The notes under the pieces were generated by a model that saw only the letters and a list, made by a program, of their open reading frames with translations, ran no database searches and was not told where the DNA came from. Positions 10,818-30,856 of a stretch of 31,306 nt of DNA are shown here, piece after piece (within the stretch, counting starts at the first letter, position 1; the number at the start of each line of letters is the position of its first letter). The position numbers and the translations under genes are program-made. Source of the stretch: a virus; IMG/VR virus record IMGVR_UViG_3300023179_000343, positions 1 to 31,306 of that record; one strand, written 5' to 3'.

Positions 10818-11426
10818 TTAAAATATCGGGCAAGTTCCATTAGCACATAGTATTTCTGTGATAATAGAGTTTACTGGAGCATATTTGTTATATTGATTAT
10901 TTTTAGACTCGTTCATAGCACCTCTTTCTTTCATATATGAACCTGGATTTGAAGGTGTTGATACAAAGTCCCAACATAATAATTCAAAGTCGTCTTGTAC
11001 TTCCATCAAGTCACCCATTTGTCTTAATGAACCCATACCACGTGATGATACACCTATTGGTATTCTGTTTTCAAATAAGGCTTTTAAGATGTTTCCTGAT
11101 GGTGTAGGTAATATTTCTATAGCTCCCATTACATGGTCTCCATCCCACCAAATTCTTTTTATGTTGTGAGAAACGTTTTTTAAGTTAATAATAGATGAGT
11201 CTGGGTGATCTAATTCACCCAACGCTCTATTATGTTTTACATTGTCCATATATTTTTTAATCTCACGCTCCCACAAATCTCTAGAATAGTAACGACCATT
11301 ACCATTTTTAACCTCAGCTGTAGCTAATATTCCTTCAACAAGTATGTTACCATTATCTACTCCTTCTATAATACGAGCAGGTTTAGCATTAAATAAACTT
11401 GTTTCTATTAATATTTGTTTACTCAT
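10818..11426 (-). CDS. 21: Prohead core protease, T4 gp21-like
   Basis: A 202-residue serine protease of the T4 gp21 type. The catalytic His is in LGELDHPD (H74), the catalytic Ser in GVSSRGMG (S127 or S128) and the third residue is probably the Asp of CWDFVSTPSNPGS (D153). NGRYYSRDLWEREI is the usual N-terminal signature. In T4 this enzyme matures inside the prohead and cuts scaffold, capsid and internal proteins after L/I-x-E motifs. Several proteins in this window carry such sites. Its ATG overlaps the stop of the upstream 397-residue gene (TAATG), and an intrinsic terminator follows. Confidence 0.93.
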   Translation of the reverse strand: MSKQILIETSLFNAKPARIIEGVDNGNILVEGILATAEVKNGNGRYYSRDLWEREIKKYMDNVKHNRALGELDHPDSSIINLKNVSHNIKRIWWDGDHVMGAIEILPTPSGNILKALFENRIPIGVSSRGMGSLRQMGDLMEVQDDFELLCWDFVSTPSNPGSYMKERGAMNESKNNQYNKYAPVNSIITEILCANGTCPIF

Positions 11427-12619
11427 TATCCTTCAAATTTTTGAATTAAATGTTGTTCTAATTCATTTTTAAAACGGATATATGGTTTTGGTAGATTAGC
11501 TATTACATCCTCTACATTACCTAATTTATTATATAATTTTTCAGCAAACATAGCAGCTTTACTAAAAGCTACTTTATCTTCTGGAGTTAGACTTTCTTTA
11601 GCTAAATGTTTCCACATAGCAGCAGCGGCTACTTTTTCACCTGCTTCTTTTGAACCATATTGTTTAGCAGCTGTTTTAGCTACTTTTTCAAATCCTTTTC
11701 CTTTTTTACCTATATCTTTACCAGCGTGAGCTTTTTTAGATATAGTTGATTTTTCTTTCTTGGTTAAACCAGCTGATGGTTTCTTTTTAGTTTCAGCTAA
11801 TACTTCTTTAATTGTTTCTGAAATAAAAGCACGTAATACTGATTCTTTTAAATCACCATATCCTGAAGATTTATGTTTACCTTTAGCTTCTTTTGGAGTA
11901 CCTAAACCAGGTGCTTCAGTTGTGTAACCTATTCCTTTAACTCCAAATTGACCATCTTTAACATAGTGATTAACGTCTTTAGCTAAGTTTTTAGCTACAA
12001 TAGCTTTTAATTCATTAACATTTTTACCTTCGTTTTTAGGATCTTTCATTTCAGTATAGTATCCTTTTAAAAATTCTTGACCAAATACGTTGTCCCAATT
12101 CTTTTCATCTTTATAATCGTAACCACGTGTAGCCATATCAGTTACATCTTTGGTAGTTTCTTTTTCTACTGCTTTAGCTTCAGAAATTAATTTGTATGTT
12201 TTTCCTATTAAGTTTTTATTTGTCTTATTAGTATCACCTACTTTAACTTTTCCTTCCATTCCACCTAATTTAGTGTATTTACCTTCAATATCATTGCCTG
12301 ATATTTTAGTAATTTTAAATTCGGCTCCTGTTGATTTATGTTTAAGAGTGTCTCCTACTTTAGCTTCTTTTTCTTCTTTAAGATTAGCCATATTTTCTTT
12401 AAAAATATTATGCCAATCTTGTTTTTTACCTGTAGTTACTATACCACCTATACCTTCTGATATGATGCTTTTATTTTTTAACACAGTAACAGTATCATTA
12501 TATGATAAAGTAGGAGTAATAAGATCAGGGAAAGTATGACGAACAGTTCTCATAAAATGTTCTTTACTTCCTTTACCTTCTTTAATAAGGTTATATTGTT
12601 CTTGTAGTGTTTTATTCAT
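11426..12619 (-). CDS. Lysine-rich head-region protein of unknown function, possible prohead core or packaged protein
   Basis: A 397-residue, strongly basic protein in the T4 slot of the small prohead core genes (between portal and gp21). Possible gp21-type sites are IISE before GIGG, LISE before AKAV, and VLAE before TKKK. An internal stretch near residues 260-280, LRAFISETIKEVLAE, matches the targeting-like motif seen at the N-termini of other genes here. It is followed by KKEKSTISKKAHAGKDIGKK and YGSKEAGEKVAAAAMWKHLA, a conserved short domain I have seen in phage proteins but cannot name. The middle part (VGDTLKHKSTGAEFKITKI) looks like a small beta barrel. The first bases overlap the preceding gene by 8 nt. 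A role in the head is inferred from position and motifs only. Confidence 0.6.
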   Translation of the reverse strand: MNKTLQEQYNLIKEGKGSKEHFMRTVRHTFPDLITPTLSYNDTVTVLKNKSIISEGIGGIVTTGKKQDWHNIFKENMANLKEEKEAKVGDTLKHKSTGAEFKITKISGNDIEGKYTKLGGMEGKVKVGDTNKTNKNLIGKTYKLISEAKAVEKETTKDVTDMATRGYDYKDEKNWDNVFGQEFLKGYYTEMKDPKNEGKNVNELKAIVAKNLAKDVNHYVKDGQFGVKGIGYTTEAPGLGTPKEAKGKHKSSGYGDLKESVLRAFISETIKEVLAETKKKPSAGLTKKEKSTISKKAHAGKDIGKKGKGFEKVAKTAAKQYGSKEAGEKVAAAAMWKHLAKESLTPEDKVAFSKAAMFAEKLYNKLGNVEDVIANLPKPYIRFKNELEQHLIQKFEG

Positions 12620-13091
12620 GTTGTTTAAATAATTTTATTACGTCGTTTAAAAGTGAAACTGCTAAATCTGTACCATAAACAGCTCTAAATTCAGGGTTCT
12701 CACGATAACTATTTATTGTTTCTTTTTTAGCTTCTTGGAGTAGTTTTATAAGTTCTTTTAATTTACTTGATAATAAATCAAAATCACCTAAACGTCCTGC
12801 TATATATTTTTTTATTTCTTCATTATCAGTTGGTAACGATGATAAATATGATTCTATATCAAATCCAGTACCTTCTTCTTCCCATAGATGTTTAACATCA
12901 ATACCTTTAGCGGCTTTATTTAATTTCTTTTGGTTTACTGGCTTAAATCCTAATTTATAATAATATATAGGAGCTTTACCTGCTACTGGTGTAGCATAAC
13001 CTTCACCGGTGCCAGGAGTAAAAGAAGCACCAGTACCTGTGGCGCTTTCTTCTGATAATTTTTTAAATATTATATCTTTAAGTCTGCTCAT
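12612..13091 (-). CDS. Small head-region protein sharing a post-cleavage motif with the capsid protein
   Basis: A 159-residue protein. The N-terminus MSRLKDIIFKKLSE is a short amphipathic helix ending in L-S-E, followed at once by ESATGTGASFTPGTGEGYATP. The major capsid protein has NSSTGTGATFTVGTGEQW right after its own presumed cleavage site (LVVE). The rest is helical (YIAGRLGDFDLLSSKLKELIKLLQEAKKE) with no recognisable catalytic motif. The gene overlaps the upstream gene by 4 nt (ATGA) and the downstream gene by 8 nt. I infer a component of the prohead that is processed by gp21; it may replace T4 gp67 or gp68. Confidence 0.6.
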   Translation of the reverse strand: MSRLKDIIFKKLSEESATGTGASFTPGTGEGYATPVAGKAPIYYYKLGFKPVNQKKLNKAAKGIDVKHLWEEEGTGFDIESYLSSLPTDNEEIKKYIAGRLGDFDLLSSKLKELIKLLQEAKKETINSYRENPEFRAVYGTDLAVSLLNDVIKLFKQHE

Positions 13092-13942
13092 TTTATCTTT
13101 TCTAACTCTTCTACTAATTGATAATACTGAAGAAGATTGATTAAATGGTCGTCGTTAACTTTATCATTTTTACCTAAACTAGGTAATATATTAATAATCT
13201 CTTTTATCTTTATTTGAGTAGCTTTATCAGTTACTTGTTTATTTAGGTTAGATAAGTGAGATTTAATTTCATTTATTTTAGTGTTGTAGAACTCTTTTAA
13301 TTTGGGAGTACTGTCAACACCATTGATAAATTCTTTAAGAACATTCTTCTGATTAGTATTCAGATTACCATATTGGTCATTAAATTTCTCCAATAATACT
13401 CGGTAAGTTAAAATACGAACGTCTTTATCTTGAGTTTTAAATTCCTCTAAAATATTTTCTTTAACTTCTTTTCTATTTTGAGTTTTAGAAGTTAAATATT
13501 CTAGAAGTGATGTTTTATTTTCTATAATCTGGTCTGGATTAGATAGATTTTCACTGTTATAGACTTCTAATAATGTGAATAAAGCAGCTTGAGCTTTATA
13601 ATTAGGTAATTTAGTTTTAAAGAATTCTTCTAAATTATAATGCTCTTTAATTTCTTTAATTAAGTTATACTTTTGTCTTTTTAAAGCAGAGCGATTTAAA
13701 TGCTTTGAACTCTCAATAAGAGTAGTAATTACCATATCAGCTTTAGCTTCGCTAGTATTCTTATTTTTAAAGAAACTTTCGTATATTTTATATTCTTTAC
13801 CTAACTCAGTTTTACTAAAATATTTTTTTAAAATACCTGTAGCCGGTGATTCTACTCCTGATAAAGTATCAGCTGTGATTTGTCTCACAAGTAGTTCAAA
13901 AAGGATACCTGTATTCTTATACTTCGAATGTTTGATAGTCAT
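13088..13942 (-). CDS. Conserved helical protein next to the portal gene, unknown function
   Basis: A 284-residue, Lys/Glu/Leu-rich, almost wholly helical protein. The N-terminus KYKNTGILFELLVRQITADTLSG followed by ILKKYFSKTELGKEYKIYE is a pattern I remember from aquatic T4-like phages in the same place after the portal gene, but no function is known to me. No membrane segment or enzymatic motif is visible. A class II motif ends 19 nt upstream of its ATG, and the gene overlaps the next one by 4 nt. Candidate prohead core or portal-associated assembly factor by position. Confidence 0.6.
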   Translation of the reverse strand: MTIKHSKYKNTGILFELLVRQITADTLSGVESPATGILKKYFSKTELGKEYKIYESFFKNKNTSEAKADMVITTLIESSKHLNRSALKRQKYNLIKEIKEHYNLEEFFKTKLPNYKAQAALFTLLEVYNSENLSNPDQIIENKTSLLEYLTSKTQNRKEVKENILEEFKTQDKDVRILTYRVLLEKFNDQYGNLNTNQKNVLKEFINGVDSTPKLKEFYNTKINEIKSHLSNLNKQVTDKATQIKIKEIINILPSLGKNDKVNDDHLINLLQYYQLVEELEKIK

Positions 13943-13961
13943 TCTAATCGTTATTTTGTCT

Positions 13962-15886: not shown

Positions 15887-15894
15887 ATAAATAT
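15887..15894 (-). promoter_or_regulatory. Class II motif ATATTTAT before the portal gene
   Basis: Coding strand GTGATATTTATAATAAA, 19 nt before the portal ATG and overlapping the last base of the terminase stop codon. Putative late promoter. Confidence 0.5.
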
Positions 15895-17480
15895 CACAAA
15901 AGCCAGCTCAAATCTTCATTTCTTCCGTTTATATTAATATTATACGGATTTTGATTCATGTTAGGCATGTATGCTCCGTTAAGTTGAGTACGAACTGCTT
16001 GTATATTATTTAACGCAGCTCGAGCTAAATCCATGTTTTGTGATTTAAACTTTAATGCTGTATCACGAACGAACATTGCTGTCGCCATACTCATAACTAA
16101 ATCATCATTATAACCAGATTGAGCTTCAGCTCTACCGTTTTTCCATAAGAATACTCTCATTTCTTCTAATAATCGTTTAGATCGGATAACAACACTTTTA
16201 TCACCCACATATTCTCTAAACTTATTAATCACAAGTGGTCTTGTTCTTAAAGACATTGTAAATCCTGGTACCATTTTTGACGGATCATCTGATCTATCTA
16301 AATAGTTTTCAGCAGTTAATGCGTCACTTTTTGTAGAGTAGTATAAGTTTTTATATTCTCTTTCTTGTATTGCTTCAATAGTTGACCAACCCATATTTGC
16401 GTTTTCAACTACTAACATAGCATTGTTATATTCTGTGGATAAACCGCATAAAAAGTAACCAAATTCACGAGGTGATAATTGTCCTTTATACTCAGCTACT
16501 TGTGTATTTGATTCAATATCAATTACATGACATGCAGATGAATCTTTACCATCACCTCTAGCTACGTCTGCAACAACCATGTAACTACGAGTATAATCTG
16601 GCGACTCCCACACCCATAAGTTACGATCAACTCCCCTTCTCTCCACGGGATCTTTAAGAGAAGTTGCTGAAATATATTCTATTTGCTCATTATAAAATAC
16701 AGTATCACCTGAAGTATTAAAGTCACAGTCACATTCTTGTGCTGCTAGTCTTGGGTCTCCTAATAAACTATCTTGTGTTTTTCTCCACTTTTCATCTCGT
16801 TCAGGGTGAACATACCAAGGTAATTTTATCGGTAAAAAACTAGGAACCCCTTCTTCAACTACACCAGATTCTGCTTTAATCCATGTTTTATGGAACCAAT
16901 TACCTGTACCATATGGAGTAGACAATACAATTGCTCCACCACCAGTTGCTAAGGTTTGTTGAGCAGATGCCCATATTTCCTCTACACCATCAATGAAAGC
17001 AGCCTCGTCTATAATTAAAAGTGATACTGCTTCTGATCGACCTGCGTCACCAGCCGCAGAAACTGCTTTAACTTGAGAACCATTACTTAGTCGTAATGTT
17101 AGTTTATTATTTTCATCTGCTGGTATTTTTAGCCATGAAGGAAGGTTTTCAAACATGAATTTAACTTTCGTTACCATGTTCTTAGCTGTTTCCTGCTTAG
17201 TAGCTATACAAAGAACGTTTTTGTCCTTTTGAAACAACATTAACCATAATGAATAACCTGCTACCAATGTAGATATACCTAACTGACGAGACTTAAGTAT
17301 TATATCATACGGATTATCTCTCCATAAATGTAATACTTTTTCTTGGAATGGGTATAAATTAAATTGAATTCTACCGCGAGTAGGATGTTGAATATAGCAG
17401 TATTTCTTCATGAAGTGTGCTGGGTCTTGAGCACATTTCAAGTATTCTTCCCTAATAATTTGTTTAATATCTTGACTCAT
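15894..17480 (-). CDS. 17: Large terminase subunit, T4 gp17-like
   Basis: A 528-residue DNA-packaging motor (T4 gp17: 610). The N-terminal ATPase has the phage-type Walker A SRQLGIST (64-71), Walker B LLIIDEA (154-160) and the coupling motif LSTPYGTGNWFH. The C-terminal RNase H-like nuclease has acidic residues D305 (VVADVARGDGKD), E359 (LVVENANMGWS) and D459/D460 (GYNDDLVMS). It docks on the portal, translocates DNA with ATP and cuts concatemers at head filling. Start at the ATG at 17480, 20 nt after the upstream gene. Neither promoter class is present immediately upstream, so it is probably co-transcribed with the 157-residue gene before it. Confidence 0.97.
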   Translation of the reverse strand: MSQDIKQIIREEYLKCAQDPAHFMKKYCYIQHPTRGRIQFNLYPFQEKVLHLWRDNPYDIILKSRQLGISTLVAGYSLWLMLFQKDKNVLCIATKQETAKNMVTKVKFMFENLPSWLKIPADENNKLTLRLSNGSQVKAVSAAGDAGRSEAVSLLIIDEAAFIDGVEEIWASAQQTLATGGGAIVLSTPYGTGNWFHKTWIKAESGVVEEGVPSFLPIKLPWYVHPERDEKWRKTQDSLLGDPRLAAQECDCDFNTSGDTVFYNEQIEYISATSLKDPVERRGVDRNLWVWESPDYTRSYMVVADVARGDGKDSSACHVIDIESNTQVAEYKGQLSPREFGYFLCGLSTEYNNAMLVVENANMGWSTIEAIQEREYKNLYYSTKSDALTAENYLDRSDDPSKMVPGFTMSLRTRPLVINKFREYVGDKSVVIRSKRLLEEMRVFLWKNGRAEAQSGYNDDLVMSMATAMFVRDTALKFKSQNMDLARAALNNIQAVRTQLNGAYMPNMNQNPYNININGRNEDLSWLL

Positions 17481-17500: not shown

Positions 17501-17974
17501 TTAACCTATGATATCAGATATCAGAGCTTTAAGGTCTTTACCACCGTCTTTAAACAATTTTTTAATCTCAGGTTTGCTGATTAATTGTTTAACAATAGCG
17601 ATGTTATCTTTAGTTGGATTAGCTAATTTTTTCTTTATACCTGCTTCAACTTTGTTCAAACGTTCTTGATCAGCTGGTGATAATTTTTTAGCTAGTTTGC
17701 TTGAATTGAATTCTTTGTCGATTTTCTTCAATTCTGCTTTTGAAGGTTCTTTTTCAGGAGCATCAAATTCGTCTTCAGTTTCTTTTAATTTTTGTCCACC
17801 AGTAGTTGTTATACTAGTAACATTAGGATCTGTTTTTAAAGGATTTAATTCAGTTGGGTTTTTAACCGGAACTACTTTTGTACCTGTTTTAGTAGCAACT
17901 AAGGCATTTATATCTTCACTTAATATTTCAGTGATTATTTCTTCAATTTGTTTTTTTAACTCTGAGCGTTTCAT
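17501..17974 (-). CDS. Small protein with a targeting-like N-terminus, in the gp16 (small terminase) position
   Basis: A 157-residue protein just upstream of gp17, where T4 has gp16 (164 residues). The N-terminus MKRSELKKQIEEIITEILSE is an amphipathic helix ending in I-L-S-E, like the possible capsid-targeting motif of other genes in this window. The middle is Thr/Pro/Lys-rich and likely disordered; the C-terminus is helical (LSPADQERLNKVEAGIKKKL, KPEIKKLFKDGGKDLKALI). I see no helix-turn-helix or gp16 signature, so a small terminase role is only positional and a head-packaged protein is equally possible. A class II motif ends 15 nt before the ATG. Confidence 0.5.
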   Translation of the reverse strand: MKRSELKKQIEEIITEILSEDINALVATKTGTKVVPVKNPTELNPLKTDPNVTSITTTGGQKLKETEDEFDAPEKEPSKAELKKIDKEFNSSKLAKKLSPADQERLNKVEAGIKKKLANPTKDNIAIVKQLISKPEIKKLFKDGGKDLKALISDIIG

Positions 17975-18892: not shown

Positions 18893-19132
18893 TTATATAT
18901 TTTCCAAGTAATCTAAGAAATTTTCAAACACTTTTCGTTGTTCTTCACCTGATTTGGTAATAGCTTCACGTAATAGTGACGGAACATCTTGGTGAGACTC
19001 GACTAAAAGTTGACTAAAGTTATGGAGAGTTAGTTTTTCTGTTAACAAATCCACACTTTCATCACCATAATCTTCTAAGTCATTCAAATATAACTGGATA
19101 TATTCGTTTATTTTACTTTTTGAGAACTTCAT
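18893..19132 (-). CDS. Small helical protein, unknown function
   Basis: A 79-residue acidic, mostly helical protein (MKFSKSKINEYIQLYLNDLE, SLLREAITKSGEEQRKVFENFLDYLENI). No family recognised. Its start lies 20 nt inside the end of the DUF6884-like gene, so it is probably translated by coupling. The phase and helical periodicity look coding; the opposite-strand frame over this area is a shadow. Confidence 0.5.
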   Translation of the reverse strand: MKFSKSKINEYIQLYLNDLEDYGDESVDLLTEKLTLHNFSQLLVESHQDVPSLLREAITKSGEEQRKVFENFLDYLENI

Positions 19133-20703: not shown

Positions 20704-21903
20704 TTATTTAGTTAAAAATTTCAATAATGTTTTGTTCAACATCAATGATTTGAAATTAGCTGTATCGCCATTGTAAATTTCTTTTACAATTTTATATTTC
20801 AAATCCACAGCAAACAATTCTTCATTCATCAACATTGCTAAACGATCAATAAGTGGTTTCTCAATTTTGTTATGTTTAGCATAAAACAAACTGTAGTTGA
20901 TAATACGTTGTGAGATGATTGATGCTAAGTCGGCGCGATATTTATCATCTTTACCAATTACACTCTTCAATTGACTAACTACATAATCATCACTTTCATG
21001 AGTCAAAATAGCTTGTGGTGAAATAATCTTGTCCAAACGGTTATTAATAAACATTGTGAACAAAGTTGAGAACTCACCACCAACACTACCTTCACCAATC
21101 ATCTGAATCAAAGGCAAACTACCTTCAAACGAATCAAGTGATGAAATTGAATTGAAGAATGTAGTGATACTTCGTGAGTTAGTATTTGTAGTAACTAACT
21201 CTGGATGTTTCAACAAGAAGTTGATACAACGACTATCTACTTGAGCATTTTCAGCCCACTCACTCCAACAGTTAATATCAAATTTCAAATTAACTGAGAT
21301 GAATCGTGTTTTTTGAGCGTTGTCAATACTATTTACCAAATAATCACCGTTATCAGGATTACTTGTAAGAATAATATGCCAATCTTTTGGTAGTTCCCAA
21401 CTGATATATTGTTGGCGGTCTATCAGTTCCATAACAGCTTGAATGAATCGAATATCAGCGCGGTTCCAGTCATCCAAAAGCAAAATACCTCCAGTTGATT
21501 TACCACTAATCCATTCAGGTGGACAGTAACTCATTCGGTTTTTACCGGTGAATTTGAAACCTAAACGCGTATACTCATCAACAGCATGTTCATCAATCCA
21601 AACTGGTGACTCATCTTTAGTCACTTCAAACTGACGAATTGGAAATCCTACCAAGTCACCCAATTCCTCAATTTGGGCTAAGTTTAACTTAACAAAATTC
21701 AAATCCAATTCTTTTGCTAATTGAACAATAGTTGATGTTTTACCAATACCTGAGTCACCAACTACTTCAACGGCTACAGGTGGTTTGTTTGTTTTTTGTA
21801 GATAACGATTGTTATCAATAATGTGTTTTAAGAATTCTTTAGCTTCTTTAACGTTCAAATCTACTTGACGAGAAGCATTACTTTTAGTTGCTTTTTTAGC
21901 CAT
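20704..21903 (-). CDS. MoxR/CobS-like AAA+ ATPase
   Basis: A 399-residue AAA+ protein: Walker A GDSGIGKT (49-56), Walker B GILLLDDWNRAD (139-150) and sensor-1-like IILTSNPDNGDY (177-188). The pattern matches the AAA_5/MoxR group; aquatic T4-like phages often carry such a gene annotated as cobS. In cellular systems these ATPases work with a VWA-domain protein as chelatases or chaperones. The VWA partner gene lies directly upstream, and the 362-residue unknown gene directly downstream. Class I promoter B fills the 54-bp gap before the start. Real cobaltochelatase activity is doubtful, since no CobN or cobalamin pathway gene is in the window. Confidence 0.85.
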   Translation of the reverse strand: MAKKATKSNASRQVDLNVKEAKEFLKHIIDNNRYLQKTNKPPVAVEVVGDSGIGKTSTIVQLAKELDLNFVKLNLAQIEELGDLVGFPIRQFEVTKDESPVWIDEHAVDEYTRLGFKFTGKNRMSYCPPEWISGKSTGGILLLDDWNRADIRFIQAVMELIDRQQYISWELPKDWHIILTSNPDNGDYLVNSIDNAQKTRFISVNLKFDINCWSEWAENAQVDSRCINFLLKHPELVTTNTNSRSITTFFNSISSLDSFEGSLPLIQMIGEGSVGGEFSTLFTMFINNRLDKIISPQAILTHESDDYVVSQLKSVIGKDDKYRADLASIISQRIINYSLFYAKHNKIEKPLIDRLAMLMNEELFAVDLKYKIVKEIYNGDTANFKSLMLNKTLLKFLTK

Positions 21904-21921
21904 TTTATAACCTATTTATTT

Positions 21922-21957
21922 TATTTAAATATAACATTTAATTTTTGGGAGGCCAAA
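21922..21957 (-). promoter_or_regulatory. Class I promoter B (TTTGGC-N18-TATATTTAAATA)
   Basis: TTTGGC (21952-21957) and TATATTTAAATA (21922-21933) on the minus strand, 18 bp apart, ending 18 nt before the AAA+ gene ATG. The 12-bp downstream element is identical to sites A and C. Confidence 0.8.
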
Positions 21958-23145
21958 TTAATATTGGATTTTGATTGTATGACCCCAACTCTCTTGAACT
22001 TCTTCAACTCCAGCTCCTTTATTACATAAAACCATCATTGTTGGTTTATGACTACGTACTGTTCTATCACCAATAAAACCGTCTGTTAAAATAATCAAAC
22101 TACTATATTGACGATGCTCATTAAAGTATTCAATAATTGGATTCATGTCAGTACCACCTCTACCACGTACTGATTCAGGCATATCTCCATCATATTCCCA
22201 AGTTCTATGAATAGTAGCATCACATTCAGCGACAGTAATTTTAATACCTGTTTTCCACATGTGATAAATTTCACTGAAGAACTCTAATAAATCTGCATCA
22301 CTAACAGAACCTGAAGTATCTACACCTACTAAGACGTGTTTTTTAGTCTTAATTTTAAGAGCTGGATTACCTGGAAAACGTCTGTTTAGTTTTCTACGTG
22401 TTTTTTTAGTGTAAATTTTATTTGAAGTACCAAAGAAACGTCTAAAATACGATTTCCAATCATATGAAGGTGGAACTATTTCAAACAAACTATTAATAAA
22501 AGATTCCAACTCAGATGGAACGAACCCACGTGATCTCTCTTTATTAGACTCAACAATTTCTTTAATCTGGTGTTTAATCTGATTTGCTACTAATTTCTTT
22601 TCAGCATCTGTTAAACTATCAAATTCTTTCCATGTTGGGTGTAATCCACCATTTTCATCTCCTTTTAACGCATCTAGTAAACCATTCAGTTTAGGACTAG
22701 AACCATTTTGAGCAGCTTGTTTCAACAAATCATAGTATACTCGTGTACCTGCTTTAAGAGGCAAATTCAGTTCTGGGAATGTTGATGGTAGAAGAATATC
22801 TTCTGTTGGATAAAATGCTGGGTCAATATATTGATTAATCTCAATATCTGCGGCTACATTATGTAGTTCATGATCATCAAATTTTTCACGGTCTTCTAAG
22901 TGATTGAAACATATATGTAACAACTCATGTTTCAAAAGACCGATTTTTTGATTGTCTCCTTTCAAAGAATCCCAAAATTCTTTATTAACTGCTAATTGAT
23001 AGTTAATGTTGTTTTTACAAACACCGGCTGTTGGTACATCTTTACGTTCTACTTTGTTAAGAGTAGACAAAAACACACCATAAAACGGTTCTTTAAACAT
23101 TAATAACTTACCAATTCTACTAAGATCGTCGTGTAATGTTGACAT
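21958..23145 (-). CDS. CobT-like protein: DUF2201-type metallopeptidase-like domain plus VWA domain
   Basis: A 395-residue protein. The N-terminal half carries an HExxH zinc-binding motif in LKHELLHICFNH (73-77) with HNVAADIEINQYID behind it, typical of the DUF2201 N-terminal putative metallopeptidase. The C-terminal half is a VWA domain with a complete MIDAS: DTSGS (276-280), T332 in GRGGTDMNP and D355 in LIILTDGF. The linker is basic (KKTRRKLNRRF). VWA proteins pair with MoxR/CobS ATPases, and the next gene is such an ATPase. It could be a chelatase-like or protein-remodelling factor; a cleavage function is suggested but not shown by HExxH. Class I promoter C lies just upstream. Confidence 0.85.
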   Translation of the reverse strand: MSTLHDDLSRIGKLLMFKEPFYGVFLSTLNKVERKDVPTAGVCKNNINYQLAVNKEFWDSLKGDNQKIGLLKHELLHICFNHLEDREKFDDHELHNVAADIEINQYIDPAFYPTEDILLPSTFPELNLPLKAGTRVYYDLLKQAAQNGSSPKLNGLLDALKGDENGGLHPTWKEFDSLTDAEKKLVANQIKHQIKEIVESNKERSRGFVPSELESFINSLFEIVPPSYDWKSYFRRFFGTSNKIYTKKTRRKLNRRFPGNPALKIKTKKHVLVGVDTSGSVSDADLLEFFSEIYHMWKTGIKITVAECDATIHRTWEYDGDMPESVRGRGGTDMNPIIEYFNEHRQYSSLIILTDGFIGDRTVRSHKPTMMVLCNKGAGVEEVQESWGHTIKIQY

Positions 23146-23221: not shown

Positions 23222-24550
23222 TTAAATTAAACTTTCAGCTACATATATACCATGTGCACCTGATACTGTGATTCCTCTAGCACTCAACGCATCACCAACA
23301 AAATGAACATTTTCATATTCTACTAATGCTAAGTCATTATAGTTCACTAATGGTTCAGGAGACAAATATTTTACTTCAGGAATATACATACCCCAATCAT
23401 CACCAAATTTGAACACTTCGTTCATTTGGTCAATGAAATTAAGAATATAATCTGCATATTCACCAAATGATTCTTTGAACCAAGACAATTCAGCAATTTG
23501 ATAACTATCAACTGTATTGTTTTCAGATGTTAAACTTGGTTTTCTAGTTAAATTAGGTGAATAGTATAATCCTGATTTTTTAGTTATTGGTAAATTAAAT
23601 TGACACTTTTGTACTACATCTCTACACCACTCAAACGGATTTTCAATACCTTTAATTTCCATCAAAATACCAAAGTTAGTCATATCGTTTCTAAATTGTT
23701 CACCTTTCTTAGCGTGACCATTATAAGTGATATCACCATATGTTTCCTCTACTGCTACATAAGCTGCGTTATTATTAGTACAGAATGATCGTAATGATAC
23801 ATTATCAAACTTTTGATATAGTTTAAAATCATAACTAATATCGATTAGTTTTTGAAAATATTTTTGTGGGCTTTCAAATCTCACTCCAATCTGGGTTGAC
23901 TTAGGTTCAGTTGGTAATTTATATTCGTCTGATAGTTTTTGAGCAAAGTCAATACCTGATTTACCTACAGCAAAAATAAGTTTATCATAATTAATCCATT
24001 CACTCTGTGGTTCATAATGCCACATTCTGTTATAGTGAAGTTTATTATTAACGAATTCAATTTTATCTACTTCAGTTTCCCATTCAAATTGAACACCTTT
24101 ATCAACTAGATAATTATACCAATTTTTACCTATTTCATGTAAATAATCAGTTCCAATGTGGTATACTGGGAATAAACGAAGACCAAAGTGAGGTTTGATG
24201 AAGTCTGGTTCTTCTTGAGGATTAGAGTACATAATTTTAGAAGGTTCAGGATGGAAACGTTTCCACATTTCAATAGCTTGATCCATTAAATTATATGCTT
24301 TTTCTTCTCCGCAATACTTAGATAATTGACCTCCGATAGCTGTATGATATGTTAATTTACCATCTGAGAATCCTCCAGCTCCTGCGAACCCAGTCATTAC
24401 TTCCTCAGGTTTACGATTATAAGGATCTTTACCTTTATCAATTATAGTAATAAGTTCACCAGGGTAATTATTATCTACTAATTTTAAAGCAGCACTAATT
24501 CCTGCTACTCCACTTCCTACAATTACAATTTTTTTGTTGTATTTTTTCAT
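23222..24550 (-). CDS. FAD-dependent dehydrogenase, COG2509-like
   Basis: A 442-residue flavoprotein. The N-terminal dinucleotide-binding fold has KIVIVGSGVAGISAALKL (GxGxxG at 12-17) and an acidic residue after the second strand (ITIIDKG). GFAGAGGFSDGKLTYH (54-69) is close to the GGAGAFSDGKL signature I associate with COG2509 dehydrogenases. LIFAVGKSG is a second flavin-fold motif, and the C-terminal NVHFVGDALSARGITVSGAHGIYVAESL is the usual FAD-binding end. Substrate is unknown; an oxidoreductase of this kind in a phage would be an auxiliary metabolic gene. It starts 1 nt beyond the end of the GIY-YIG gene. No defect in the FAD motifs is visible. Confidence 0.78.
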   Translation of the reverse strand: MKKYNKKIVIVGSGVAGISAALKLVDNNYPGELITIIDKGKDPYNRKPEEVMTGFAGAGGFSDGKLTYHTAIGGQLSKYCGEEKAYNLMDQAIEMWKRFHPEPSKIMYSNPQEEPDFIKPHFGLRLFPVYHIGTDYLHEIGKNWYNYLVDKGVQFEWETEVDKIEFVNNKLHYNRMWHYEPQSEWINYDKLIFAVGKSGIDFAQKLSDEYKLPTEPKSTQIGVRFESPQKYFQKLIDISYDFKLYQKFDNVSLRSFCTNNNAAYVAVEETYGDITYNGHAKKGEQFRNDMTNFGILMEIKGIENPFEWCRDVVQKCQFNLPITKKSGLYYSPNLTRKPSLTSENNTVDSYQIAELSWFKESFGEYADYILNFIDQMNEVFKFGDDWGMYIPEVKYLSPEPLVNYNDLALVEYENVHFVGDALSARGITVSGAHGIYVAESLI

Positions 24551-25176: not shown

Positions 25177-25650
25177 TCAGACCAACACCCATGATGGTTT
25201 ATTGTTTAATTTGTTCCAATTTAATCCTTTAATTTTTACTTTATCATTAATATAAAAATTCTTATAAGCAGCCAAAATATCTTGGCCTTTAAATTCATCA
25301 GGCATACATTGTGGTGGAGCTACAAAACCATTATCTGGTAGATTTGGTTTGTTATCTCTACACCATTCTAGTACTTTTTTAGTAGCGTGTTCTTTACCGT
25401 AACGTTTTTCAAATTCATCACAAATTTCAAGTCCATGTTCTACAAGCCAATTATAATGTTGTATTGACTGTCTAGTCCATATTGTTGAAGGATGATTTTT
25501 ATGAGCACGTTTGTAAGGAGCAGTACCGCCTGTTTCCCAATGTGTAGTACAACACATTTGGGCTGATTCAATTTGCATTTTACGAATATGATCATCAGCT
25601 AATTCTCTAGCAGCGATGATAGGGTCAGGATTTATGTAAAATATATTCAT
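25177..25650 (-). CDS. Conserved phage protein with HKNHP/TIWTRQS motif, unknown function
   Basis: A 157-residue protein beginning MNIFYINPDPIIAARELADDHIRKMQIESAQMCC. I choose the ATG at 25650 because the longer frame to 25725 would read through class I promoter D and a hairpin, and the residues MNIF are the start I remember for homologues. Conserved parts are YKRAHKNHPSTIWTRQS, HYNWLVEHGLEICDEFEKRYGK and CMPDEFKGQDILAAYKNFYI. Aquatic T4-like phages carry this family as a hypothetical protein. The His/Cys/Arg content suggests a nucleic-acid or nucleotide enzyme, but I cannot name a reaction. Confidence 0.75.
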   Translation of the reverse strand: MNIFYINPDPIIAARELADDHIRKMQIESAQMCCTTHWETGGTAPYKRAHKNHPSTIWTRQSIQHYNWLVEHGLEICDEFEKRYGKEHATKKVLEWCRDNKPNLPDNGFVAPPQCMPDEFKGQDILAAYKNFYINDKVKIKGLNWNKLNNKPSWVLV

Positions 25651-25658
25651 ATTCTCGT

Positions 25659-25687
25659 AATATAATAAAAAATTCTTTAAAGCCAAA
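25659..25687 (-). promoter_or_regulatory. Class I promoter D (TTTGGC-N17-TATATT)
   Basis: TTTGGC (25682-25687) and TATATT (25659-25664) on the minus strand, 17 bp apart, 8 nt before the ATG at 25650. The downstream element is less like A-C (TATATTACG), but the upstream element is identical to A and B. Confidence 0.6.
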
Positions 25688-25700
25688 CTAGCATAGAGAA

Positions 25701-25723
25701 GGCCCAATCTTTTTGATTGGGCC
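25701..25723 (-). terminator. Hairpin upstream of promoter D, likely terminator
   Basis: Minus strand GGCCCAATC, loop AAAAA, GATTGGGCC: a perfect 9-bp stem followed by TTCTCT. The T-tract is imperfect, but the position after the preceding gene and just before a new promoter fits termination. Confidence 0.65.
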
Positions 25724-25777
25724 ACAGCTCCTTTAGTTTTTTAGTTTAAGTCGACAGGCTATGAATCTGTCTGTATG

Positions 25778-26098
25778 TTATTTATTTTTTAATTTATTAT
25801 AAACTTTTTTAGCTAATACTAACAAAGCAGCTCCTGCTATACTTCCCGCGACAGTAGCTCCCATATGGGATGGGGATTGCCCCATCATTTTCATATATGG
25901 TGTTATAATATCTCCAGCACTAGCTAAATAATTAGTTACAATACCTCCACCAACTAAACCTGTCCAAAATGCTCCACCATAATCAAATCCTTCATCTAAT
26001 GTTTGAGCTTTTTTAGCAAAAGCTAATGCTAATTTATTAGCATCTTGAGGATTAACATCAACATCTCCCTCATTTAAAGAAATATTAAATTTAGACAT
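25778..26098 (-). CDS. Second half of a frame-split gene, with small hydrophobic C-terminus
   Basis: From the ATG at 26098 this is 106 residues (MSKFNISLNEGDVDVNP). The same frame is open and coding-like well upstream, through IENQEETSPEEAAKAISQN, ADKIAADPKATEELNKL, back to the A10 run at 26251-26260. I think the ATG is internal and that the natural product continues from the 161-residue gene at 26241-26726. The C-terminal part has two Gly/Ala-rich hydrophobic segments (FWTGLVGGGIVTNYLASAG and ATVAGSIAGAALLVLAKKVY) that could span a membrane, like a holin or pore, or pack as helices in a virion protein. No homologue is recognised. Confidence 0.55.
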   Translation of the reverse strand: MSKFNISLNEGDVDVNPQDANKLALAFAKKAQTLDEGFDYGGAFWTGLVGGGIVTNYLASAGDIITPYMKMMGQSPSHMGATVAGSIAGAALLVLAKKVYNKLKNK

Positions 26099-26240: not shown

Positions 26241-26726
26241 TCAATTAAGCTTTTTTTTTTGACGATACTGAGTTTCAGTAATAATACCTGCTAATTTTTG
26301 CATTTTAAGGAATGACTCATTTAATGCTTCTTCTTTCATGCCTTCGTCTTCTACTTCCATTTTCTCCATCACATCAGCTTCATCAACTGGTGATTCTTCA
26401 ACTTTAGCATCAGTTACTACTTCGTCTTTTTTATCTTTGCTTGCTTTTTTATTAGCTTTCTTTTCTTTAGCTTTTTCAAATTTAGCTTTAGCTTTCTTAA
26501 GTTCTTTAATTTCGTTTTCAAGACCTTTAATCTTGCCTTCATCCATTAAATCTTTATGATCACTTTCAGCGATAGCGTTTAATTTAGCTTCACGCATTTG
26601 AATAGCTTCTTCACATTTTGCAATACGAGCTTCCATAGCAGCATCTTCAGCAGCACCATCAATTTCCTTAATATATTCTTGAATTGATTCGCGTATAATT
26701 GAACGTACTCTTTCTATTGTATTCAT
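26241..26726 (-). CDS. Helical protein with targeting-like N-terminus; ends just after an A10 frameshift site
   Basis: A 161-residue, highly charged coiled-coil protein. The N-terminus MNTIERVRSIIRESIQEYIKE is an amphipathic helix like those of other genes here. The middle is Lys/Glu-rich (ENEIKELKKAKAKFEKAKEK), then an acidic section, and near the C-terminus NESFLKMQKLAGIITETQYR, a motif also seen at the end of the scaffold protein (NEAFARMQKIAGL). Translation stops shortly after a run of ten A. In the +1 frame the sequence remains open for another 157 residues, giving a fusion of about 315 residues. Candidate packaged head protein. Confidence 0.65.
   Translation of the reverse strand: MNTIERVRSIIRESIQEYIKEIDGAAEDAAMEARIAKCEEAIQMREAKLNAIAESDHKDLMDEGKIKGLENEIKELKKAKAKFEKAKEKKANKKASKDKKDEVVTDAKVEESPVDEADVMEKMEVEDEGMKEEALNESFLKMQKLAGIITETQYRQKKKLN
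26251..26260 (-). other. A10 homopolymer, frameshift or slippage site
   Basis: Ten consecutive A on the coding strand between CGTC and GCTTAATTGA. The upstream frame meets TGA 9 nt later; one A fewer would join it to the downstream open frame. It may be transcriptional slippage, ribosomal frameshifting, a real mutation or a sequencing error. Confidence 0.6.
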
Positions 26727-26766: not shown

Positions 26767-28080
26767 TTATACTGTTTTCTTTTCTACTGATTTAGTTAAT
26801 TTAAAGTTTCTCACACCTTTAATCGCTCTAATATCAGTAAATAATTGTTGTAAATCTTCATCTTTGAATCCTGTAGAGAATGGATGTGGGTCTATTTTAA
26901 TTTTAAGTAAGATGTAATAATTTGGGTTACTAAAAGCGGTGTCATTTGGGTTAATATCTTTAGAAGATACAATTGTTATACCTGGTAATGAACGAATATC
27001 TGATAATATATCTTTTTGAGGGCGTTCTTCAGTGTTAGTAAGAAGTGTTCCTTCAACATAGTATTGAGTTGATTCTTCTTTAATAATATTTTTAACTAGA
27101 TCTGTTAATTTAGTAGATTCATTTACTCCAGTAGCGTCAAAATCATCTGCTCTTAAATCAGTTTCAATATCTGAAATTGTATTTTGAACCCAATCTATTT
27201 GTTGTGGAGTTAAATTTTCATTGATAGCGTTTTCTATAAATGAGAAAAACTCACTGTCTGCTAATTTATAAACATCTTGGAAAAAGAATGATTGTACTCT
27301 ACTATCATCTGATTCAGCAAACGCTGAGAATATGTTATTGATTGCTTTATAGATAAATTTACCATAACGAATATCTTCTGGCTCATTTTCTAATTTGTCA
27401 ACTTGTCTAACAATAGCTTGTTTAGTTTCTCTGTCTCCTTTAAGACCGCTTTGTCCTAAAATACCAAAATATCCTTTAAGTAACTCATGTACTAACATAG
27501 GAAAACACACAGCTCTAGCTCTAATACTTAAAGCCTCAGTTATTACAATTTTAGAAGAACCTCCAGCTAATTTTTGTCCACCAGCTACCGCTGCTAACAT
27601 TAAAGCTATAGCGTCATCATTATCATATATACCAAAAGTATTATTCATTATTTGATTGTACTTATCATATAATGAAGGATTAATCTCGTCTAGATGATTT
27701 CGGAAAATACGAAATAATTCAGTCATACTAACTACAGATGCTCCTTGAGTAATAGCATTGATAACACGACGACGTTTCTCTCCAGGAGTAGCTTCATCTA
27801 ATGATCTTCCTACATCAGATAAACTAACTATTTTAGCATCTATCCCAATATTTTCTTGATCAATAATTGGATATTTTTCTTTAAGTATAGATACGGCTAA
27901 ATTTTCTAATCGAGATTTATATGGACTCTCAGCTGAAATAATGTCATTTAATAGCTTTTGTGAAGACATCATCACCTGCATTAAACTACGATTACCAATC
28001 ATCAGTTGTAAACTATCAGCTGATTTTTGGTTTAATCTATTTAAAGTCTCAGGACTAAATATGTCTCTATATTGTGCCAT
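26767..28080 (-). CDS. Conserved phage protein of unknown function, two-part structure
   Basis: A 437-residue protein. Residues 1-320 are helical (LMQVMMSSQKLLNDIISAES, AIALMLAAVAGGQKLAGG, VCFPMLVHELLKGYFGILG). A joining stretch NESTKLTDLVKNIIKEES (about 320-338) resembles the targeting and cleavage motif found at the N-termini of neighbouring proteins. The C-terminal domain, QKDILSDIRSLPGITIV to IRAIKGVRNFKL, looks like a ferredoxin/ACT-like beta-alpha-beta fold. I have seen this arrangement in aquatic phages as a hypothetical protein. The start overlaps the preceding stop by one base (TAATG). The internal L-x-x-I-I-K-E-E might be a protease site separating the two domains. Confidence 0.65.
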   Translation of the reverse strand: MAQYRDIFSPETLNRLNQKSADSLQLMIGNRSLMQVMMSSQKLLNDIISAESPYKSRLENLAVSILKEKYPIIDQENIGIDAKIVSLSDVGRSLDEATPGEKRRRVINAITQGASVVSMTELFRIFRNHLDEINPSLYDKYNQIMNNTFGIYDNDDAIALMLAAVAGGQKLAGGSSKIVITEALSIRARAVCFPMLVHELLKGYFGILGQSGLKGDRETKQAIVRQVDKLENEPEDIRYGKFIYKAINNIFSAFAESDDSRVQSFFFQDVYKLADSEFFSFIENAINENLTPQQIDWVQNTISDIETDLRADDFDATGVNESTKLTDLVKNIIKEESTQYYVEGTLLTNTEERPQKDILSDIRSLPGITIVSSKDINPNDTAFSNPNYYILLKIKIDPHPFSTGFKDEDLQQLFTDIRAIKGVRNFKLTKSVEKKTV

Positions 28081-28298
28081 TATTTTTTACCTTGTTTAAA
28101 TCTTTGAGCTATTTTTTTAGCGATTGCTTTTGCTGGTTCTTCAACTGGTTCTTCAGGAGAAATAGTTCTACGTCTTGTAGGAGTAGTTGGTTTTGTTTCA
28201 ACATCGGTCTCTGGCTCAGCTATTTGTGGTTGAGGAGCTTCAGCTAATACTTTTTCTATTTCTTCTCTGATAATTCTTCTTAAATCTGATTTTTTCAT
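28080..28298 (-). CDS. Small protein with clear targeting-like leader (LRRIIREEIEKVLAE)
   Basis: A 72-residue protein: MKKSDLRRIIREEIEKVLAE then A, followed by a Pro/Thr/Glu-rich, disordered and finally basic segment (KAIAKKIAQRFKQGKK). The first 20 residues form an amphipathic helix ending in V-L-A-E, and the next residue is Ala, as in T4 internal proteins cut by gp21. The basic remainder could bind DNA in the head. It overlaps the 853-residue gene by 4 nt (ATGA) and the next gene by one base, and a class II motif ends 16 nt upstream, inside the end of the preceding gene. Confidence 0.65.
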   Translation of the reverse strand: MKKSDLRRIIREEIEKVLAEAPQPQIAEPETDVETKPTTPTRRRTISPEEPVEEPAKAIAKKIAQRFKQGKK

Positions 28299-30856
28299 TT
28301 TTTTAATGTTTGTAATAAATATTTGATTTCTTCTAACTCTTGAGGTCTAGTTAAAGTATGCATATGGATAATAGGTGCTTTCATATCTTCAGCTAAATTA
28401 CGTTGTCGTAAAGCATCTATTAAGGCGTTAGCGTTAGGTATAGAGAATGCTGTTTGAGCTGTTACAATATAATGTCGAGCATCTGGTTGCATGGCTACTG
28501 ATCCTATCATAGTACCACTAGCTAAACGAATAACATAAAATTTACTTTGTCCTGCTGTAATAACACCTGTTACTCTACCTCTAGTTCCTAAAGCACCATT
28601 TCTACGAGTAGCTCCTCTATCAGTATTAACTGGGGTTACGCTTCCATTTATTAATCTGTTTCTTACACCTGTTGGTAAAGCGTCAAATCCTGTAGTTAAC
28701 CCAGCTTGAGTAAGTAAATCTATAGTATCTTGGCCTCCACCTTGAGCAGGAGTAGCTGTTGGTTCTGCTTGTCTAGTAGTACCTGCTGTTCTTCCTCTTC
28801 TACCAGTAGCGGCGGGTCTAGCAGGAGGTTCAACTCCTAACATTCTAGCAGCTAAATTAGGTGGAATATTAGCTTTAATTAATTTTCCACTATTAGAAGA
28901 TATTTTTTTACTTTCTCTAGAGTTAGTTTTATTCACAAGATATACTACTCCTTCATATTCAACTATTTTATAAATATTATCTTCAGTTAATGGTGGATCA
29001 GCTTTAGCAAAGTTTTCACCAATATAATATGTGTATCGAAACCTATTTAATAACTGGTTAGTGTCGTAAGCTAGGTTTTGACTTCTTAGATATTCAAAAA
29101 ATGCTTTCCATGAATTCAAATCTGCTCTTGATGGACCAGCAAATCTTCCAGTATCTAACCATTGATTTTCATAATAATTATTTTGGAGAGGGTTATTTGA
29201 TATCCAAGCTTGTATATTATTAGTTTCAGGTACAGCTATAAAAACATGACTATTACCATCATGAATTACTGTTCTTCTATTATAAGGAGTAGAATTAAGA
29301 ATAGGAATTATATTTGATATAGGTACACTACTAATATCTGTAAATTGTGATAATAATCTTACTACACCATCTTGAAAACTATTATTACCTTCCTCGCTTG
29401 TTAATATACTTTGTACTGAGTCATCATTAAAAGGTACAGATTTAAATTTACCATCTTCGTACTTATATGCTTTAAAATTATTTGAATCAAGTAATATTTG
29501 TCCTTCATCTGTATCTTTAATTATAATCGCAGAATTAGGATCTGTTTTAGCTTTTTCAATTACTTTATCTAAAGATTCTTTAGGTAAAATATTATCTGAT
29601 ACTAATTTAACTATAGTTTCAAATGGTAATTTATCTAACTCAGGATACTCAGCTAAATATTTACCAGTACGTTCATTTATTTTTATATTTGGGTGACTTT
29701 CATTTTCTGTAAAAATACCCATTTTAACTTCACCTTGACTAAATTTTAATTTAACTATTGCTTTATCATCTTTAGTTATATAATATCTTTCATTTTCTGG
29801 AATTTGTAAAAGATTACCTTTTACCACTGCTTTTTTAGCAGACCAAGGATAAGCATCTGATTCTATAATGTTAGAATTAACTTTTGTAAATCTAGAAGCG
29901 TTAGCTATAATTGATTTTTGGTACTTAGGTACAAAAGAATCAAATTCTTGTAACAAAGTAAGTATATCTATATACCCATAATTCTCAGCTATCATTTCAG
30001 CTATTTGAGGTAATTTAGGTAATACCTTAGCTACAAAATTTTGATTACTTATGTCTGAAAATAGTTGTTGTTCTTTTCTAACTACAAGGTATTGCTCTTT
30101 AAATGAGTATGGAGCTTTAAGCCATTCTCCTACTGTTATGGCTTTATTTTTGTATATTTGAGATAATTTTTCTGATTTAGATATAGGAATATATCTGAAT
30201 ACACTTTGTAATCCACGTACTGAAGGGAAGTTTTGTTCAACAAATGACCATGGTTCCCATCTATTCCATTCTGTATGTCTTCCACCTACATCATTATTTG
30301 ATCTATCAGAAACTTTATATGTGTTATCACTACCAACTACAACGACAAAGAAACTTTTTCTATCATCATTTGGTAAATTTGTATCTTTTACTAAATAGAA
30401 TGTTGGGTTTTTTCTATTTGAATCATAACGATAGGTAGCAAATGATCCTCTAGTAATACACCATTTTTCTCCTCTACCAAAATTTAAACAGTTTTCTTCA
30501 TTACTACCATTATAAATGATAAGACCATTTTCATTATAAACAACATCAGGAGTGATGTCTGCTGCATCTGGTTCTTCTTCAGTTGAACCTTTATATGAAG
30601 ATACAAGTTTAATTAAAGACTGTAGTGAGTATTTATTTAAATCTTTTTCTGTTACTTTAGGATTATTTTTTAATCTTGAGTCAAAAAAGTCAATATAGTC
30701 ACTTAGTTGTTTGTCAGTAATTTCAACATTATAGTCATCAGCTTCTTGTTTAAATTTATCTATTAATTGTTGTTTAACTCTAGGAGCTAAAGCTTCAGAT
30801 AAATTATTTTGCCAATTATTAACTAAGTGTTCTATTAATTTATAAATATTCTTCAC
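28295..30856 (-). CDS. Large multidomain protein with WCITR domain; candidate packaged or ejected protein
   Basis: An 853-residue protein with a GTG start overlapping the preceding TGA (GTGA). The N-terminus MKNIYKLIEHLVNNWQNNLSE before ALAP looks like a cleavable capsid-targeting segment. A domain at about 100-240 contains VVYNENGLIIYNGSNEENCL, EKWCITRGSFATYRYDS, PTFYLVKD and FFVVVVGSDNTYKVSD; I have met this W-C-I-S/T-R domain in large aquatic phage proteins, function unknown. Middle regions are helical and beta-mixed. A Pro/Ala/Arg-rich linker near 680-712 (RPAATGRRGRTAGTTRQ) leads to a C-terminal alpha/beta domain ending MKAPIIHMHTLTRPQELEEIKYLLQ. Size, leader and linker recall T4 Alt-type internal proteins, but no ADP-ribosyltransferase motif is seen. 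Confidence 0.65.
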   Translation of the reverse strand: MKNIYKLIEHLVNNWQNNLSEALAPRVKQQLIDKFKQEADDYNVEITDKQLSDYIDFFDSRLKNNPKVTEKDLNKYSLQSLIKLVSSYKGSTEEEPDAADITPDVVYNENGLIIYNGSNEENCLNFGRGEKWCITRGSFATYRYDSNRKNPTFYLVKDTNLPNDDRKSFFVVVVGSDNTYKVSDRSNNDVGGRHTEWNRWEPWSFVEQNFPSVRGLQSVFRYIPISKSEKLSQIYKNKAITVGEWLKAPYSFKEQYLVVRKEQQLFSDISNQNFVAKVLPKLPQIAEMIAENYGYIDILTLLQEFDSFVPKYQKSIIANASRFTKVNSNIIESDAYPWSAKKAVVKGNLLQIPENERYYITKDDKAIVKLKFSQGEVKMGIFTENESHPNIKINERTGKYLAEYPELDKLPFETIVKLVSDNILPKESLDKVIEKAKTDPNSAIIIKDTDEGQILLDSNNFKAYKYEDGKFKSVPFNDDSVQSILTSEEGNNSFQDGVVRLLSQFTDISSVPISNIIPILNSTPYNRRTVIHDGNSHVFIAVPETNNIQAWISNNPLQNNYYENQWLDTGRFAGPSRADLNSWKAFFEYLRSQNLAYDTNQLLNRFRYTYYIGENFAKADPPLTEDNIYKIVEYEGVVYLVNKTNSRESKKISSNSGKLIKANIPPNLAARMLGVEPPARPAATGRRGRTAGTTRQAEPTATPAQGGGQDTIDLLTQAGLTTGFDALPTGVRNRLINGSVTPVNTDRGATRRNGALGTRGRVTGVITAGQSKFYVIRLASGTMIGSVAMQPDARHYIVTAQTAFSIPNANALIDALRQRNLAEDMKAPIIHMHTLTRPQELEEIKYLLQTLKK
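28315..28322 (-). promoter_or_regulatory. Class II motif ATATTTAT before the 72-residue gene
   Basis: Coding strand CAAATATTTATTACAAAC, 16 nt before the ATG and within the final codons of the 853-residue gene. Overlap with coding sequence weakens the case. Confidence 0.35.

Follow-up and report, generated by a model that had tools for sequence, protein, structure and literature searches.

In phage T4, the internal proteins IPI, IPII and IPIII and the protein Alt begin with a short N-terminal capsid-targeting sequence (CTS), which is removed by the prohead protease gp21. According to excerpts of the literature, IPIII needs no more than its first 10 residues for incorporation, with residues 4 and 7 acting in targeting and residues 8 and 10 in processing (PMC9026906), the T-even internal proteins are diverse and have only the CTS conserved (PMC3012670), many of them have been identified through this leader, and the T4 proteins Ip1-Ip3 block GmrSD restriction enzymes (PMC12373910). 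The principle of a CTS that is clipped off is already known. Here we describe tags of a similar kind in IMG/VR virus record IMGVR_UViG_3300023179_000343 (31,306 bases, all large genes on the minus strand; hereafter the window, by which we mean the whole stretch analysed) and in its relatives. At least three tag types, unrelated in sequence and named here classes A, B and C, move among unrelated protein bodies and have a marked boundary at the motif L/I-x-E, and the window also encodes a gp21-type protease (Peptidase S77). From these sequence comparisons we consider it quite likely that the leaders serve as detachable tags for prohead docking and are cut by gp21.

The likeness to the T4 CTS lies in a short N-terminal leader common to unrelated bodies (108 families for class A, 54 for class B and 58 for class C), in the L/I-x-E end and in the S77 protease of the phage. 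No sequence likeness was found, since the T4 leader MKTYQEFIAE (10 residues) is unrelated to classes A, B and C and the tags here have about 20 residues; they would thus work like a CTS without being sequence homologues of it. Further differences are the existence of at least three tag types, one of them the scaffold's own C-terminus, and the number of body families, more than 100 in one sample compared with at least 10 T-even internal proteins reported. Phages of the phiKZ type and SPN3US also have inner head proteins with N-terminal propeptides cut after Glu (A-x-E in SPN3US), although these are mostly far longer and end in another motif, and the excerpts of PMC5694885 at hand describe no common scaffold-end tag. 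The DarB protein of phage P1 has an N-terminal head-packaging signal of which the first 30 residues are enough for a reporter, but the part of PMC9024508 that deals with it gives no consensus among Dar proteins, whereas here one tag is found on many bodies.

The window is a fragment of a far-T4-like phage. Its terminase shares 60.5-60.7% identity with that of Flavobacterium phage immuto (Immutovirus), the closest named relative by this gene, 49.8% with that of Microcystis phage Mel-JY01 and 34.5% with that of Rhodothermus phage RM378, and its group is close to the far-T4 phages as presented in excerpts of PMC4360716, a placement made without a tree. Besides the nearest terminase, the window has the head-gene order of this group (terminase, portal, 284 aa, 159 aa, 397 aa, protease, acidic scaffold-like protein, major capsid protein, MCP), which resembles those of immuto and of T4 (20-67-68-21-22-23); when 20.3 kb of the window were compared with named phages by megablast, no match appeared. 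The protease belongs to Peptidase S77 (PF03420 at 100.6 bits against a curated cut-off of 27, E 1e-28), is 31% identical to T4 gp21 and retains GEL[DN]HP and GVSSRG, which we take to be the catalytic motifs of this type of protease. The elements discussed below are the following:

28239..28298, minus strand: class A leader MKKSDLRRIIREEIEKVLAE of a 72-aa protein (gene 28080-28298), score 31.2 with our first leader profile
17915..17974, minus strand: class A leader MKRSELKKQIEEIITEILSE of a 157-aa protein (gene 17501-17974) directly upstream of terL, from the sequence and the leader profile
26664..26726, minus strand: class A leader MNTIERVRSIIRESIQEYIKE of a 161-aa protein (gene 26241-26726), from the sequence and the strict expression
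26274..26312, minus strand: class B motif FLKMQKLAGIITE near the C-terminus of the 161-aa protein, a class tested in an IMG/VR sample
13050..13091, minus strand: leader MSRLKDIIFKKLSE of a 159-aa protein (gene 12612-13091) between portal and protease, its E14 invariant in 18 aligned sequences including that of the window
13002..13049, minus strand: ESATGTGASFTPGTGE, directly after the putative cut of the 159-aa protein, resembling the capsid protein after its own putative cut
30794..30856, minus strand: leader MKNIYKLIEHLVNNWQNNLSE of an 853-aa protein (gene 28295-30856, GTG start), a separate leader type with an L-x-E end
11792..11836, minus strand: internal leader-like helix LRAFISETIKEVLAE of a 397-aa protein (gene 11426-12619), residues 262-276, followed in relatives by variable modules
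27073..27108, minus strand: internal copy LTDLVKNIIKEE in a 437-aa protein (gene 26767-28080), residues 325-336, preceding a mobile cassette of about 100 aa
9543..9578, minus strand: C-terminus FARMQKIAGLRK of the scaffold-like protein (gene 9540-10637), a class B motif without cleavage site
9329..9355, minus strand: NQAKQLVVE, end of the delta region of the MCP (gene 7760-9508; PF07068, 247.6 bits), a putative protease site
10818..11426, minus strand: gp21-type prohead protease (Peptidase S77), from PF03420, phrog_207 and the T4 gp21 alignment
15894..17480, minus strand: terminase large subunit, whose start IKQIIREEYLKC resembles the leader and is not counted as a tag

An initial annotation of this DNA, made from the letters alone, had proposed that a family of unrelated proteins shares a capsid-targeting and cleavage leader ending in L/I-x-E. 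All seven items it named are present, on the minus strand and at the genes it gave, the bodies are indeed unrelated (best pairwise blastp E 0.04, over 23 residues), and the gp21-like protease that it placed in the same phage is the one at 10818-11426. The observation is confirmed as real and is larger than first reported.

The strongest single result comes from class B. A comparison of N-termini genome by genome, in which the T4 IPII/IPIII leader was recovered as a positive control, gave the shared starts MQKLAGIITE in one relative (G001), M-x-NFDLKKFLVENKLT in immuto and MKVSQLKKLIREAVKSVLLTE in contig G066, together with shared starts unlike tags, such as MLYSGIIKN in G002. When IMG/VR was searched with F-x-[RK]-M-Q-K-L-A-G, a pattern that stops at LAG, at least 119 stretches were returned with at least 119 distinct open reading frames (ORFs) in 54 families, and the motif was N-terminal in 47 family representatives. 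L/I-x-E follows within 6 residues in 47 of the 51 testable family representatives, against 8/50, 3/49 and 3/47 in control windows 10, 20 and 30 residues later. Sorted by position, it accompanies 64/70 N-terminal and 6/6 internal copies and only 2/43 C-terminal ones (70/76 vs 2/43, Fisher p ~6e-23, with copies that are not independent and families that are fewer). The C-terminal copies are mainly the gp22-like scaffold itself: 36/43 are acidic, 30 of the 37 with enough downstream DNA lie directly before gp23, and the scaffold-like proteins of the window and of immuto end in FARMQKIAGLRK and RWQKLAGIIK, respectively. It is evident that the site is found almost only where there is a downstream part to release.

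The class A leader has 20 residues (MKKSELKQIIKEEIxKVLxE). A strict expression run on 2371 ORFs of relatives, themselves found by terminase and capsid protein, gave 21 matches, 15 of which begin by residue 13, whereas three sets of shuffled ORFs gave 4, 2 and 6 matches (N-terminal 0, 1 and 0). A first leader profile included 66 terminase starts as contaminants and was replaced by a family-weighted one built from 37 body families with the terminase cluster excluded, whose consensus is M-K-K-S-E-L-K-Q-[LI]-I-[KR]-E-E-I-x-[KE]-V-L-x-E and whose information content is 1.81 bits at the closing E and 0.35 bits one residue further on. With a score of at least 20, this profile matches 299 proteins in 193 body families (viral loci L002-L353), including at least one terminase representative and one family preceding a baseplate gene, both of which are probably look-alikes. 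The profile is distributed unevenly, with 7 matches in G001 and 6 in G002. The consensus gave only 2 and 1 weak matches among named phages (E 7) and none among plasmids, and there were zero profile matches in the 278 ORFs of T4.

The endpoint was examined in a separate sample, taken from IMG/VR with the DNA coding residues 1-14 only (at least 120 stretches), so that the pattern stops before the site. The resulting 116 distinct proteins of at least 60 residues form 108 body families, and 78 of these have an L/I-x-E whose final residue falls at position 17-23 (at residue 20 in 53, 19 in 14 and 17 in 8), compared with 4, 3 and 4 of 108 in control windows at residues 27-33, 37-43 and 47-53 and with a mean of 9.5 and a maximum of 18 in 500 shuffles. 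A chance likeness among amphipathic, Lys/Glu-rich N-termini in AT-rich phages probably does account for single matches, such as the terminase start and the baseplate-adjacent family. Applied to the whole group we reject it as extremely unlikely, given the N-terminal excess far above shuffles, this endpoint test and the controls in 120 random viral stretches (1.0 Mb), which contain zero exact class A, B or C patterns and five looser profile matches, at least one of the baseplate-adjacent type.

Leaders may also be found close together, as in a 13.9-kb contig with seven pattern matches (L295), and one could think of the shared start as a DNA recombination seam spread by homology, with a peptide that has no function. 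In 78 pairs of class A leaders within the same contig, the residue is the same in 1152/1482 codons, yet 358 of 1151 degenerate residues differ in codon, almost the same proportion as between contigs (13212/37888 at matching degenerate residues), and agreement falls to 65/1092 at residues 21-34. Residues that are kept while synonymous codons differ indicate that selection acts on the leader peptide; recent DNA copying is no explanation, and the seam is rejected with hardly any probability left to it. As a separate observation, four adjoining leader genes in G066 (42860-45085, locus L500) share a dialect of their own, MKVSQL[RK][KQ]LIREA..., each with an L-x-E that has a different middle residue; tags may follow the local head proteins.

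Class C (FDLKKFLVENKLT, consensus FDL..[FY]L.EN.[LIVM]T) behaves in the same way. A search of IMG/VR, again with a pattern that stops before the site (at least 120 stretches), gave at least 124 distinct ORFs, 112 of them with the motif 1-4 residues from an ATG. In 58 families the motif is followed by at least 60 residues; L/I-x-E stands within the first 14 of these in 42 families, against 1, 5 and 1 in the next three windows and a shuffle mean of 8.3 (largest 16 in 300 shuffles), with N, S, K, L or other residues in the middle position. A search with the consensus sequences of classes B and C over 50,697 named phage records matched only four records, all of immuto (E up to 10), a cultured phage (host Flavobacterium sp. 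LMO8) that encodes the protease. It has a class B tag on KNV73_gp083, class C tags on gp003, gp076, gp077 and gp092, and a class A-like start, with an ill-defined end, on gp080. Its tagged proteins are annotated as hypothetical, except for one cob(I)alamin adenosyltransferase, and its record mentions no head cargo; a literature search for virion proteomics of immuto found none. The exception, gp077 (NC_055915 117631-118632, locus L196), starts with a class C tag, and may be either a wrong annotation or an enzyme carried as head cargo.

The same L/I-x-E endpoint in three unrelated tags, retrieved with patterns that stop before it and with low controls, supports detachable tags. The leader might instead be a helix of general use that docks or pairs with a different partner, of the phage or of the host, L-x-E being merely the end of the helix and never cut. 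Class A is amphipathic, and a low-confidence model (mean predicted local distance difference test score, pLDDT, 52) has one helix at residues 2-17 that runs through the site, as such a helix might; the convergence of three unrelated tags on L/I-x-E with a variable middle residue and shifted spacing, and the near absence of the site where the class B motif is terminal, make this quite improbable.

Similar boundaries appear in head proteins and in large proteins of the window. The conserved delta region of the capsid protein ends in KQLVxE; when 83 relatives were aligned, all 60 rows printed keep the E, and a variable stretch comes next. This boundary is of the V-x-E form and departs from the strict L/I-x-E motif. 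What follows the E reads xSSTGTGATFT, a segment met again in the same register behind the leader of the 159-aa family; two further proteins, of 302 aa and 261 aa, have it internally, after QLDE and KLDE. An E lies four residues before TGxG in 38/39 contexts, 15 of them capsid proteins (the nearest E is at -4 in 31 and at -3 in 7 that read EE, and the lone exception begins at the start codon there). An AlphaFold model of the 159-aa protein (pLDDT 52) was too weak to use.

The 397-aa protein was listed by the initial annotation as an internal copy of the leader. The similar helix is there, but the gene looks like that of a conserved core protein rather than a simple cargo gene: in its family, a conserved part is followed by LRSQIxLLVKEVLAE and then by phage-specific tails with common modules. 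From 62 distinct relatives with the conserved anchor, 35 have a helix that fits our expression, and 29 of these have the endpoint [LIVM]-x-E; the other 27 were left uncounted, some having no helix at all. On the class A profile, 29/44 of these helices score above the 0.1% null for N-termini, and the family supplies the largest group (29 proteins including the 397-aa relatives) among the 83 internal class A matches at score 12, compared with 11 in shuffles. A fixed block after the variable insert was considered and is not claimed, as it was recovered in 2/35 by regular expression and in 9/33 by local alignment.

The 853-aa protein had been given the same leader. Its L-x-E end stands, in the window and in the 7/7 homologues examined out of 13 found (with starts read by upstream frame extension), and the middle residue is S, F, S, L, N, N, V and A; the sequence is that of another leader type. 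The initial reading as a targeting and cleavage tag is supported in part by the sequence, through the modular tag, the kept L/I-x-E, the protease, the similar boundary in the capsid protein and the class B motif at the scaffold end; the 853-aa leader and the 397-aa copy differ from it. The 853-aa protein has no match in Pfam or PHROGs, and a search of the Protein Data Bank with its AlphaFold model (pLDDT 71, predicted template modelling score 0.42) gave no match at E <=0.001. Its family (28295-30856) has an invariant WCITxG stretch. At two loci (L021 and L025), the cassette of about 100 aa in the 437-aa protein is the only body behind a class A leader, and in two contigs (G002 and G017) it closes 853-type proteins; [IL]-[KQ]-E comes before it in 16/17 aligned copies. 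Relatives of the protease itself have [LIV]-x-E-T near the start in 79/99 and L/I-x-E in the last 32 residues in 72/99, counts taken without a chance control; an LIE near the start of T4 gp21 is mentioned in the excerpt of PMC9026906.

The tags are associated with the protease. For class A contigs of at least 15 kb (49 of 79 listed), S77 was found in 17/49 and gp23 in 16/49, rising for S77 to 9/11 above 100 kb, where the exceptions are G037, with a terminase 73% identical to that of the window near the contig end, and G066, with replication genes common with immuto. Class B and C contigs contain S77 in 18/35 overall and in 9/9 above 100 kb, immuto included, and random contigs in 4/36 and 3/16, and in 4/10 above 100 kb. 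Taken together, S77 is present in 18/20 tag-bearing contigs above 100 kb vs 4/10 random ones (Fisher p 0.007), and in 17/64 vs 3/42 at 100 kb or less, with sizes not exactly matched. The possibility that the leader would be equally common in phages lacking gp21, raised with the initial annotation, was checked in this way and not seen. Sixteen tag-bearing contigs without S77 include one with the window's terminase and two with immuto's sheath. Class A and class B patterns are found in 0/26 large random contigs. As the tags track one lineage, the link of tag and protease is an association only: the tags mark a protease-bearing lineage, and the protease alone does not imply tags. Three tag-bearing contigs (G045, G047 and G050; loci L275, L277 and L280) have 2-3 in-frame TGA codons in the S77 frame, which suggests that these phages read TGA as an amino acid.

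The bodies behind class A leaders are short (median 110 residues in the family representatives of the profile set) with a net charge near zero. Scans of 147 representative bodies with Pfam, PHROGs and PADLOC, seen as the best 25 of 32-38 families, gave few family matches; the best in Pfam were DUF7678, WYL_2, DUF7717 and DUF6934 together with weak coiled-coil, and those listed for PHROGs and PADLOC were few or weak. One alternative is that the tagged proteins are core or scaffold components, which build the prohead and are then degraded instead of surviving as injected cargo. Some carriers do sit among the head genes, namely the 159-aa and 397-aa proteins between portal and protease, the former at a site like that of T4 genes 67/68, and the 157-aa protein beside terL, and in T4 the same places on the map are taken by gp67, gp68 and gp22, which carry prohead or scaffolding annotations. 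The bodies are nevertheless very diverse, mostly without family match, with most of the 193 families found once in the sample, and several leader genes lie in small clusters away from the head genes. Diversity and gene clusters fit accessory cargo better, and we regard the core or scaffold explanation as unlikely.

Under the reading as detachable docking tags, a short N-terminal helix would bind the growing head core or shell by imitating the phage's own head-assembly segments, class B being the C-terminal tip of the gp22-like scaffold and class A resembling the helix inside the core-like protein encoded just before the protease. The tagged protein would in this way be built into the prohead, the gp21-type protease would cut after L/I-x-E with loss of the tag, and the freed body would presumably remain in the head. 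More tentatively, many bodies may enter the cell together with the DNA and have an early effect on the host, in the manner of the T4 internal proteins; by this analogy, we give about even chances to the delivery of most bodies into the host.

Several observations weigh against this reading. With all sizes considered, only 17/49 and 18/35 tag-bearing contigs have S77 (many may be fragments, few having been inspected), the protease is not sufficient, as six large random contigs with an S77 match have no class A or B patterns, and the gp21 association is inseparable from lineage. Two unlikely cargo proteins, the terminase (at its start) and the one before the baseplate gene, also score on the class A profile. 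Class A is uneven in its occurrence, with 0-1 profile matches in 6/14 relatives and a score of at least 12 in only 17/39 distinct proteins just upstream of terL. L/I-x-E is absent from the tested window in 30/108 class A families, some of which have V-x-E or M-x-E and others nothing similar. Finally, the putative MCP site is V-x-E, and the C-terminus of T4 gp22 is unlike T4's own CTS.

Other genes of the window were also seen. Two recall the tags in part: a 106-aa protein (25778-26098) begins at 26069-26098 with MSKFNISLNE-GDVD, a short start with an L-x-E end, and a 79-aa protein (18893-19132) without Pfam match has LLTE and SQLLVE-SHQ in mid-protein, like the ends of class C tags. An AAA ATPase-like protein (below cut-off) adjoins a DUF2201 metallopeptidase-VWA protein at 20704-23145, a MoxR/VWA-like pair in a phage, followed by an FAD-dependent oxidoreductase-like protein (Pyr_redox_2, 23222-24550), unexpected beside phage structural genes, and a pyrimidine dimer DNA glycosylase-like protein (25177-25725, PF03013 E 1.2e-5). 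Between the capsid and PhoH genes, a 451-aa protein (6316-7671) with REase-like and zinc-finger matches below cut-off is possibly a homing endonuclease insertion.

The tag feature is real and unusually well marked. What we provisionally consider new, from a limited literature coverage with most subscription papers outside it, are the tags themselves (their exact strings, the only form searched, were not found in the open papers covered), their number, the links to the scaffold's C-terminus and to the helix of a core-like protein, and the size of the tagged set. There might be a general loading code in far-T4 phages, by which any gene gaining a detachable tag copied from scaffold or core is carried in the head and freed by gp21, giving a changing first-strike arsenal of hundreds of families in genome-specific dialects that follow the local head proteins; we hold this to be as probable as its contrary. 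Bacterial defences encounter injected phage proteins at a very early point; if the tags mark head cargo, a sequence search would give candidate delivered proteins in an aquatic phage lineage, each with a predicted mature start. The scaffold-end motif would indicate a docking site common to scaffold and cargo, and the tags could act as loading signals in phages of aquatic Flavobacteria and relatives.

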